Shown here one piece after another: positions 15,248 through 22,408 of a stretch of 64,000 nucleotides of DNA. The DNA lies in assembly GCF_030913635.1 (NCBI RefSeq), contig NZ_CP133188.1:1240001-1304000 (forward strand). The letters are read 5' to 3'. The notes beneath the pieces are model-generated. The model saw only the letters and a list, made by a program, of their open reading frames with translations. It was not told the origin of the DNA and ran no database searches. Position 1 is the stretch's first letter. Each line of letters opens with the position of its first letter. A program made the position numbers and the translations under genes. Source of the DNA: Sedimentibacter sp. MB35-C1. Its GTDB lineage: Bacteria > Bacillota > Clostridia > Tissierellales > Sedimentibacteraceae.

Positions 15248-15360
15248 TCCTAACCCGATTTTATCGACCAAAAGGGAGAAAAAATCGATGGTAGGTCAAC
15301 CGCAACGAATTCCTAATTTATGCGACGCAAGGAGCAAATAAATTAGTGAATGAGACTGCG
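15248..15360 (+). repeat. rrn junction element, copy A (leader)
   Basis: Two-hairpin element of about 110 nt just before 16S. Hairpin 1 is closed by CCTAACC/GGTAGG with inner stem CGATTTT/AAAATCG. Hairpin 2 is closed by CGCA/TGCG and ATTC/GAAT, with stem CTAATTTATGC/GCAAATAAATTAG and loop GACGCAAGGA. Confidence 0.85.
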
Positions 15361-15368
15361 ACAGGAAT

Positions 15369-17019
15369 ATAAAACGAGAGTTTGATCCTGGCTCAGGACG
15401 AACGCTGGCGGCGTGCCTAACACATGCAAGTCGAACGAGATTTACTTTTTCACTGAGAACTCGAACATCTACAACAAGCACAAAAGTGCATAATATAATA
15501 AGATGTAGAAAAACAGCGAGTTGCACATTTGTGCTTCACGCTAAACCCAAGTGACAACACACTTGAAATTCGAGAGCTAAGTGAAAAGGTAAATCTAGTG
15601 GCGGACGGGTGAGTAACGCGTGAACAATCTGCCCTGTACAAAGGAATAGCCTCGGGAAACCGGGATTAAAACCATATAACACTTGATGACCGCATGGTCG
15701 ATGAGTCAAATCGTTAGAGGTATAGGATGAGTTCGCGTCTGATTAGCTAGTTGGTGGGGTAAAGGCCTACCAAGGCGACGATCAGTAGCCGGCCTGAGAG
15801 GGTGAACGGCCACACTGGAACTGAGACACGGTCCAGACTCCTACGGGAGGCAGCAGTGGGGAATATTGCACAATGGGGGAAACCCTGATGCAGCGACGCC
15901 GCGTGAGTGAAGAAGGTTTTCGGATCGTAAAACTCTGTCCTTGGTGAAGAAAAAAATGACAGTAGCCAAGGAGGAAGCCCCGGCTAACTACGTGCCAGCA
16001 GCCGCGGTAATACGTAGGGGGCGAGCGTTGTCCGGATTTACTGGGCGTAAAGGGTGAGTAGGCGGTAGTATGTGTCAGATGTAAAAGGCTAAGGCTTAAC
16101 CATAGTTAGCATTTGAAACTGTATTACTTGAGTGCAGGAGAGGTAAGCGGAATTCCTAGTGTAGCGGTGAAATGCGTAGATATTAGGAGGAACACCAGTG
16201 GCGAAGGCGGCTTACTGGACTGTAACTGACGCTGAGTCACGAAAGCGTGGGTAGCAAACAGGATTAGATACCCTGGTAGTCCACGCTGTAAACGATGAGT
16301 GCTAGGTGTTGGCCAGCGATGGTCAGTGCCGAAGTAAACACAATAAGCACTCCGCCTGGGGAGTACGGTCGCAAGACTGAAACTCAAAGGAATTGACGGG
16401 GACCCGCACAAGCAGCGGAGCATGTGGTTTAATTCGAAGCAACGCGAAGAACCTTACCAAGGCTTGACATCCCCTTGACCAGTGCAGAGATGTACTCTCT
16501 TCTTCGGAAGCAAGGGAGACAGGTGGTGCATGGTTGTCGTCAGCTCGTGTCGTGAGATGTTGGGTTAAGTCCCGCAACGAGCGCAACCCTTATCCTTAGT
16601 TGCCAGCAGGTAAAGCTGGGCACTCTAAAGAGACTGCCGATGATAAATCGGAGGAAGGTGGGGATGACGTCAAATCATCATGCCCCTTATGTCTTGGGCT
16701 ACACACGTGCTACAATGGTCGGTACAAAGGGAAGCGAAAGAGCAATCTGGAGCAAATCCCAATAAACCGATCCCAGTTCGGATTGTAGGCTGCAACTCGC
16801 CTACATGAAGTCGGAGTTGCTAGTAATCGCGAATCAGAATGTCGCGGTGAATGCGTTCCCGGGTCTTGTACACACCGCCCGTCACACCATGGAAGTTGGT
16901 AATACCCGAAGTCGCTGAGCTAACCGCAAGGAGGCAGGCGCCGAAGGTAGGATCAATGACTGGGGTGAAGTCGTAACAAGGTAGCCGTATCGGAAGGTGC
17001 GGCTGGATCACCTCCTTTC
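15369..17019 (+). rRNA. 16S ribosomal RNA
   Basis: Recognised from AGAGTTTGATCCTGGCTCAG (15377), CCTACGGGAGGCAGCAG, GTGCCAGCAGCCGCGGTAA, GGATTAGATACCCTGGTAG, GCAACGAGCGCAACC and the anti-Shine-Dalgarno end GGATCACCTCCTTTCT. Length is about 1,650 nt, roughly 120 nt above normal, because helix 6 (V1) is enlarged at 15438-15596. Ends are estimated by similarity and are good to a few nucleotides. Confidence 0.97.
15438..15596 (+). other. Enlarged helix 6 (V1) insertion in 16S
   Basis: A 17-bp arm (15438-15454 with 15580-15596, one G-U pair) encloses further nested hairpins, where ordinary 16S genes have about 45 nt. Confidence 0.8.
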
Positions 17020-17141
17020 TAAGGAGAACTAAAGGACTTATGCTGTTTTATTGCTTGCTTTAAACAAAAGTAAAGCAAGACTGAAGGATACAGTATAAAA
17101 CCACAGAACTTTGAAAATTGCATAGGAAAAAAGAGAAGATG

Positions 17142-17254
17142 CCTTACCCAATTTTTTCGACCGTAGGAAGAAAAAAATTGAAGGTAAGACATTCGCAACG
17201 AATTCCCAATTTATGCGACCATAAGGAGCAAATAAATTGGAGAATGAAACTGCG
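17142..17254 (+). repeat. rrn junction element, copy B (16S-23S spacer)
   Basis: Same two-hairpin design. The first stem has changed to CCTTACC/GGTAAG with CAATTTTTT/AAAAAAATTG. The second keeps the CAATTTATGC stem and GGAGCA loop side. Base changes are paired. No tRNA lies in this spacer. Confidence 0.85.
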
Positions 17255-17343
17255 AGACATTGAGAAAAGTTAAATTCAAATTTTAAATAATAAATACAAT
17301 TTAACCAAAAAAAAATGTTATGAAGACATAACAATGACAAACA

Positions 17344-22175: not shown

Positions 22176-22185
22176 TACTTAAGAC

Positions 22186-22259
22186 GGGCTTATAGCTCAG
22201 GTGGTTAGAGCGCACGCCTGATAAGCGTGAGGTCGATGGTTCGAGTCCATCTAAGCCCA
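22186..22259 (+). tRNA. tRNA-Ile (GAT)
   Basis: Acceptor GGGCTTA/TAAGCCC, anticodon loop CTGATAA. Confidence 0.95.
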
Positions 22260-22281
22260 CTATACCAAAACAATTTGTTTT

Positions 22282-22355
22282 GGGCCTTTAGCTCAGTTGG
22301 TTAGAGCGCCCGGCTCATAACCGGTAGGTCCAAGGTTCGAGTCCTTGAAGGCCCA
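22282..22355 (+). tRNA. tRNA-Met (CAT), elongator type
   Basis: Acceptor GGGCCTT/AAGGCCC, anticodon loop CTCATAA. The paired first base is unlike initiator tRNA. Confidence 0.9.
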
Positions 22356-22358
22356 CTC

Positions 22359-22408
22359 ATGACTCAATTTATGCGACGCAAGGAGCAAAAAAATGGGAAA
22401 TGAGACCG
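22359..22408 (+). repeat. rrn junction element, half copy F (inside tRNA cluster)
   Basis: Only hairpin 2 is present: ACTCAATTTATGC, loop GACGCAAGGA, then GCAAAAAAATGGG and AAATGAGACC. It lies between tRNA-Met and tRNA-Phe. Confidence 0.75.

Follow-up and report, generated by a model that had tools for sequence, protein, structure and literature searches.

Group IIC introns insert in sense orientation behind terminator hairpins with a short guide pairing. Another structured, mobile and dispersed repeat is bcr1 of the Bacillus cereus group, whose size is similar to that of the element described here; we know of no flank-guide pairing and no gene-end placement in bcr1. The part of PMC8266576 used here describes IS200/IS605 elements as having palindromic ends and a strand-specific, single-strand transposition. 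In these elements, guide-base complementarity picks the cleavage sites, and an altered guide retargets them. Three further groups, ERIC/IRU, RUP and Correia/NEMIS, are presented in the consulted part of PMC2229807 as non-autonomous, intergenic and RNA-folding sequences of ~100-160 bp with TA ends.

The element considered here is best read, with a probability of roughly two in three, as a mobile, non-autonomous piece of DNA, ~115 bp long, in which two hairpins are combined with two guide bases. Among literature titles and abstract openings, no published description of such a two-hairpin element was found.

Copies around the rRNA genes

The window, that is, the whole 64-kb stretch analysed, contains five full copies and one half copy of the element, all on the plus strand and all around the genes of an rRNA operon. 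Each full copy of ~115 bp consists of two hairpins, TGnCCTAACC...GGTAGGTCA and CGCAACGA...GAGACTGCG, with two bases, called here the guide, between them; the ends are placed to within 2-3 nt. Copy 1 (15246-15360) lies between the 16S gene and the 5′ arm (15154-15170) of a presumed 16S processing stem, whose complementary 3′ arm is at 17037-17053. Copy 2 (17140-17254) lies between the 23S gene and the 5′ arm (17104-17128) of a presumed 23S processing stem, 92% complementary to its 3′ arm at 20549-20573. These four arms are on the plus strand and outside the element. Copy 3 (20413-20527) starts 6 nt 3′ of 23S, copy 4 (20708-20820) starts 2 nt 3′ of the first 5S, and the diverged copy 5 (20993-21107) is found 2 nt 3′ of the second 5S and 12 nt 5′ of tRNA-Glu. 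The half copy, a hairpin-2 remnant (about 22359-22408), lies in a tRNA-Met/tRNA-Phe spacer; among the matches listed, two other loci (L085 and L142) have a full copy in such a spacer. The predicted folds of the five full copies are better than those of their own shuffles (z from -2.5 to -7.2).

The initial annotation had described these copies, whose coordinates are refined here (e.g., 15246-15360), as flanking 16S, 23S, both 5S genes and a tRNA, and as absent from the rest of the window, and it was right on each of these points. An Rfam scan located the 16S, 23S, two 5S and tRNA genes as it had stated. Two covariance models run over the 64 kb gave no further copies, only weak antisense matches at both 5S copies (minus strand, 20681-20758 and 20966-21043; both with the first model, only the first with the second), which arise because hairpin 1 is nearly palindromic. 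The comparison with Rfam that had been proposed as a check returned no family for the element, either in the whole-window scan at gathering score or in an E-value scan of 20410-21115. The same database places a c-di-GMP-I riboswitch directly upstream of the rRNA operon, on the minus strand at 14820-14895.

The genome is a single 3.62 Mb contig with six 16S genes, seven 5S genes and six rRNA operons. Copy 1 is present in one operon of six, the other five showing the empty site CTTGAGCAAGAATAT in the operon alignment. Copy 2 occurs in the window operon and in operon D, and the remaining four show the empty site GAGAAGACATTA. Copy 3 is present in all six. The copies behind 5S are two in the window operon, damaged in operons A and B and missing from D, E and F. 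All rRNA copies listed for this genome are in sense orientation. The element thus has no fixed place in each operon, and its reported occurrence at every junction of the rRNA operon holds for the window operon and fails for the other five. The distance of the post-23S copy from 23S is 6 nt in this genome, 45 nt in G014 and 27 nt in G030, a genome of another family in which the copy follows 23S in three of three operons.

The same operons differ in other respects. The 16S length varies within the genome: near the start of the gene (window 15439-15595), operons C, E and F have ~135 nt more than A, B and D. Operons A and B lack a segment of ~150 nt in 23S (window 18538-18694) that is bounded by an inverted repeat and resembles an intervening sequence carried by some operons only.

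Dispersal, placement and flank pairing

A first covariance model, built from the five full copies of the window, gave 25 matches at E 2.0e-8 or better in the same genome. Seventeen of them lie within rRNA or tRNA clusters and eight elsewhere: behind rplW (one), rplJ (two) and tuf (two), inside a cobalamin riboswitch, and downstream of two leader terminators, that of an FMN-riboswitch-like leader and that of a T-box-like leader upstream of a serS-like gene. These names come from reading the sequence, with a family search confirming L23 (rplW) alone. The copy in the cobalamin riboswitch (L115 3977-4093; genome position 2052276) has TA at both ends, and its paralogues do not display the empty site in the exact form expected. 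In G015, two similar riboswitches carry no copy. Among relatives, the covariance model matches 28 of 41 genomes; within the genus these are 23 of 25, at 4-63 matches per genome. No copy was found by the covariance models in the genus genomes G002 and G016. A second model found the element in 99 of 249 genomes of the order and in 34 of 92 genera searched. The matches per genome derive from the best 14 candidates scored order-wide and the best 91 genus-wide. The exact core of the element is common to 14 records, five of Sedimentibacter, two of Tissierellia and seven with wider names only. Copies occur singly and as tandem arrays. Among the matches listed, some copies (L156, L182 and L202) sit inside another dispersed palindromic repeat, which starts TCATTCTGA.

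The proposed search of related genomes for a bias towards rRNA operons has therefore found copies scattered outside them, in protein operons and leaders of relatives as well as at eight of the 25 strong matches of the genome itself. The alternative first offered, a mobile palindrome specific to rRNA, keeps its mobility and loses its specificity. The family is real, mobile and apparently unnamed, and it apparently belongs with small non-autonomous hairpin elements, among which it is unusual in its one-sided gene-end placement and its flank-guide pairing.

For the analysis of sites, 213 model matches (96 + 117) were reduced by hand to 174, weak, antisense, contig-end-cut and duplicate matches being dropped. 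The left end and the guide were readable in 146 of these, 17 of them internal to tandem arrays and 129 primary, the latter forming 85 site clusters. Gene context was taken from a simple longest-frame caller. A start 0-3 nt 3′ of an in-frame stop codon, counting only open frames that span at least 80 codons, is seen in 29 of 153 unique copies; not one starts at 4-10 nt. In 57 of the 85 independent clusters, the element starts directly behind a stop codon (22), a T-run (26) or the 3′ end of a tRNA, 5S or 23S (9); the other 28, which are unclassed, include rRNA leaders, rRNA spacers, less regular terminators and other repeats. AGA sites lie at stops in 21 of 36 clusters, as against 87 of 1890 background AGA within 0-3 nt of a stop, and a T-run precedes TTA or GTA in 25 of 39 clusters, as against 512 of 4052, both backgrounds being drawn from the same loci with filled sites still included.

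The rplW-rplB spacer illustrates this placement. Of 21 genomes, eight have full copies there, G001 has one cut by a contig end, G005 and G017 have remnants, six are empty, two have other sequence and two are unreadable. In six of the eight full-copy genomes, the first copy is directly 3′ of the stop codon, and in G000 and G021 it begins ~11-12 nt 3′ of it, after a short remnant. The downstream ribosome-binding site is intact in all eight.

In 73 of the 85 clusters the element has the same orientation as one or more of its neighbouring genes, and in 11 it is antisense only; one cluster has no gene within 400 nt. According to the GC skew (20 sampled stretches and 7 loci), the copies of the own genome lie on the leading strand, with one ambiguous case close to the terminus. 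Transcription and replication are consequently confounded as causes of the orientation, which was dropped as evidence for the former over the latter.

A blind covariation scan of 149 unique copies links the element to its left flank. Besides the hairpin stems, two flank-element pairs stand out, at ranks 5 and 13 of all column pairs: one couples base -3 to the second base that follows GGTCA, the other base -2 to the first. Both pairs are formed in 79 of 85 site clusters, as compared to 26.9 (sd 4.0) after shuffling, none of 5000 shuffles being as high, and to 36 and 48 in two other registers. The helix formed by these two pairs is 96.9% paired across 81 site representatives. The main flank/guide types are AGA/TT (34), TTA/AA (19) and GTA/AC (19), and base -1 is almost always A. 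Copies internal to tandem arrays show the pairing in only 5 of 17 cases. In the window, the left flank is GTA at copy 1 (15243-15245, plus strand, as are the following), where it pairs with the inner AC, AGA at copies 2 (17137-17139) and 3 (20410-20412), and GTA at copies 4 (20705-20707) and 5 (20990-20992). The inner bases of copy 4 are TC, so that its -2 pair is absent, an exception to the flank-guide pairing within the window.

Empty sites bear on whether these bases precede the element. The AGA flank of copy 2 pre-exists in the four empty sites of the same genome. Where G019 lacks the L146 copy, GTA is already there behind a T-run, and G000 and G015, which lack the L145 copy, already have TTA at the rpsO-like terminator; in G008, also without the L145 copy, there is no TTA at that site. 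The pre-16S site reads GCA when empty and GTA when filled. Overall, the flank bases probably serve in target recognition; if they travelled with the element, the pairing would be an internal stem and not site recognition. Three operons of G014 without the pre-23S copy read GAGAACGACATT, where the flank bases are not already in place; this fits a clean insertion of GATGTCC...CTGCG with no duplication and, like the G008 and pre-16S sites, speaks against the flank as target. A 2-bp duplication (GA) fits copy 2 of the own genome, copy 1 only with two substitutions, and the G014 pre-23S site not at all. A long target duplication around bacterial copies was considered and rejected: the median alignment score of 83 flank pairs, 18, equals that of 249 control pairs, and the best 4 of the 83 consist of one array, one other repeat and two tRNAs.

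A diverged form of the element recurs in family f4 of the order, across genomes of several genera. In prophage genes it is nearly identical across genera (L317 1501-1604 and relatives; L362-L370). A pattern for this form matches nine stretches in eight viral contigs, among what read as late genes: seven are followed by a major tail protein-like gene and two by a ClpP-like gene. In one aligned example of each context, a partial copy of the start of the downstream gene precedes the element. The element had no match in phage or plasmid collections, and one degenerate pattern had none in viral contigs. Prophage copies may be a route of the element between species.

Stem covariation and the readings it allows

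The paired stem changes noticed at the outset are confirmed. Double changes affect 10 of 38 predicted pairs among the five window copies, and 29 of 41 pairs among 81 of the 85 site representatives, a number reached by none of 500 shuffles. Covariation thus exceeds chance in the larger alignment very strongly. In the stems of these 81 representatives, 365 cells are double-changed with 95.4% pairing (0 of 500 shuffles as high). Selection on RNA is expected to favour G-U over A-C. However, G-U makes up 1.8% of the predicted-fold pairs, as against 9.6% in 126 tRNAs from the same loci under the same treatment, and G-U (43 cells) and A-C (30 cells) are similar in number. Because G-U is rare and hardly differs from A-C, the strong covariation is no proof of an RNA function. 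Rare G-U pairs in strongly covarying stems suggest DNA hairpins, and the stem pattern would fit either these or a hairpin-templated repair in which one arm serves as the template for the other.

In eighteen partly overlapping orthologue comparisons, 40 pair changes are double, 20 are one-sided with the pair kept, and 30 break the pair; kept pairs may be overcounted since the alignment was fitted to the structure. The six least-changed orthologous or sister comparisons yield 1 double, 5 one-sided kept and 7 broken. The latter argue against strong selection in place, and the total of the 18 leaves room for some. Non-Watson-Crick pairs in stems amount to 3.8% at T-run sites, 2.5% at AGA sites and 8.9% at other sites. 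Among apical loops, GNRA-like ones, flanked by G-A pairs, are the commonest, and GATA, GTTA and GACA also occur. Given these other loops, loop type was dropped as evidence for RNA over DNA.

The initial annotation favoured a functional RNA of the rRNA operon, acting in processing, antitermination or assembly. The sense orientation of the rRNA copies, the post-23S copy in 6/6 operons here and in 3/3 operons of G030, from another family, and the strong covariation speak for it, and yet it is very improbable. Copy 1 is lacking in five of six operons, copy 2 in four and the post-5S copies in D, E and F, and the presence of such operons in one genome suggests that maturation and transcription proceed normally without these copies. 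The presumed 16S and 23S processing stems exist separately, the post-23S distance varies (6, 45 and 27 nt), copies sit in r-protein operons, behind terminators and inside the cobalamin riboswitch, and G002 and G016, members of the genus, have none. Somewhat better placed, though still unlikely, is an RNA module of 3′ untranslated regions selected in place, for example as a block against attack by 3′ exonucleases or as a site for an RNase, which would have spread through its usefulness behind genes. It would account for the tight position behind stop codons and RNA ends, the sense orientation to a neighbour in 73 of 85 clusters, the GNRA-like loops with their G-A pairs, and the 40 double against 30 broken changes over all orthologue comparisons. 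Conversely, at 26 of 85 clusters the element directly follows a T-run, a place where most transcription ends, and the stems there are nearly as intact as at AGA sites (3.8% as against 2.5%, with 8.9% at other sites); in addition, G-U hardly exceeds A-C, and the least-changed pairs show 7 broken changes against 1 double and 5 one-sided kept.

An RNA-based element is also improbable, and a little more so than such a module. Its transcript would be joined to RNA 3′ ends, or would reverse splice into gene-end DNA with exon binding guided by the inner bases, and would then be reverse transcribed. The targets, which are RNA 3′ ends and terminators in sense, agree with this, as do the likeness of the guide-flank pairing to IBS/EBS pairing and of the terminator placement to group IIC introns. 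By contrast, the Rfam scan of the window found no group II intron family, G-U pairs are few, and copies as a rule lie outside genes, which is unexpected for an element that splices itself out. The mobile DNA element remains the preferred reading. It lies one-way just behind gene ends where bases -3 and -2 match its guide; a trans-acting enzyme reading single-stranded hairpins would move it, flank-guide pairing would help to choose the insertion site, and insertion would possibly leave a 2-bp duplication. The rRNA-operon copies would then be tolerated passengers in spacers that are cut away during maturation. The mobile DNA reading is supported by the dispersal of the copies, by sites that are filled in some cases and empty in others, by the site bias, by the flank-guide pairing and by the strong, G-U-poor covariation. 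Against it stand the lack of a candidate enzyme, the Y1 pattern described below, the mixed empty-site flanks, the 28 of 85 clusters outside the gene-end classes, and the 40 double versus 30 broken changes, which selection in place would also produce. A more specific version can be put forward only tentatively: a minimal mobile element without a protein of its own, which uses two guide bases between its hairpins to program where it lands, homes to the 3′ edges of transcription units, rides in prophages and is moved by a hairpin-reading enzyme or at the RNA level. In this version, the guides TT, AA, AC and GC would each go with a target of their own, AGA, TTA, GTA and GCT, respectively.

If the mobile DNA reading is true, 34 of the 92 genera searched in the order harbour an unnamed repeat family that has an apparent two-base guide and settles at gene ends, mostly without disrupting genes. 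Paired changes in stems, which are often taken as proof of a functional RNA, could then also mark a hairpin element acting at the DNA level, and the count of G-U against A-C mismatches would be a simple test usable elsewhere. The identity of the enzyme would reveal whether a new hairpin-guided insertion system exists.

Candidate mover and known systems

Y1 transposases were found in 18 of the 25 genus genomes. None was found in G001, G004, G006, G007, G017, G018 and G022 (most assemblies being incomplete), all of which bear copies, four of the seven carrying at least 27; the copy-free G002 and G016 have one Y1 transposase each. A Y1/RAYT transposase was therefore set aside as the obvious mover, as its presence does not track copy number. 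The own genome has two Y1/RAYT-like transposase genes (L204 and L205, at 1578756 and 226669), the former followed by short repeats with AACGTCCCCGCGTCC. A model search of these two loci found no copies beside the Y1 genes.

Compared with bcr1, as it is generally described, the element is set apart by its flank-guide pairing and its gene-end placement. With group IIC introns it shares a sense position behind terminators together with a short guide pairing, but it is only ~115 nt long and encodes no protein. It resembles REP/REPIN sequences with TnpA-REP (RAYT) in its dispersed short hairpins, a bulged stem and a GTAG inside GGTAGG, taking the REP features from the consulted part of PMC8266576. 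Unlike them, it is 115 nt long, with two unlike hairpins and the GTAG within a stem, and has no copy beside its own Y1 genes. Size, non-autonomy, intergenic site, TA at the ends and RNA folding are shared with ERIC/IRU, RUP and Correia/NEMIS, as far as the part of PMC2229807 used here describes them. These have terminal inverted repeats, whereas the ends of the element, TGnCC and CTGCG, are by eye not inverted copies of each other, and it lies in one orientation behind gene ends.

The IS200/IS605 family offers a parallel in one respect, the complementarity between the guide and the insertion-site flank, seen in 79 of 85 clusters, where the flank is probably the target. The guide of the element follows hairpin 1 and precedes hairpin 2, whereas the IS200/IS605 guide is 5′ to each palindrome; moreover, the two hairpins fill nearly the whole length of the element, there is no transposase inside, and a 2-bp duplication is possible. 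Owing to the guide position and to the seven copy-bearing genomes in which no Y1 transposase was found, the element is not classed as a member of this family. By analogy, it may nevertheless work like IS200/IS605 through guide complementarity.
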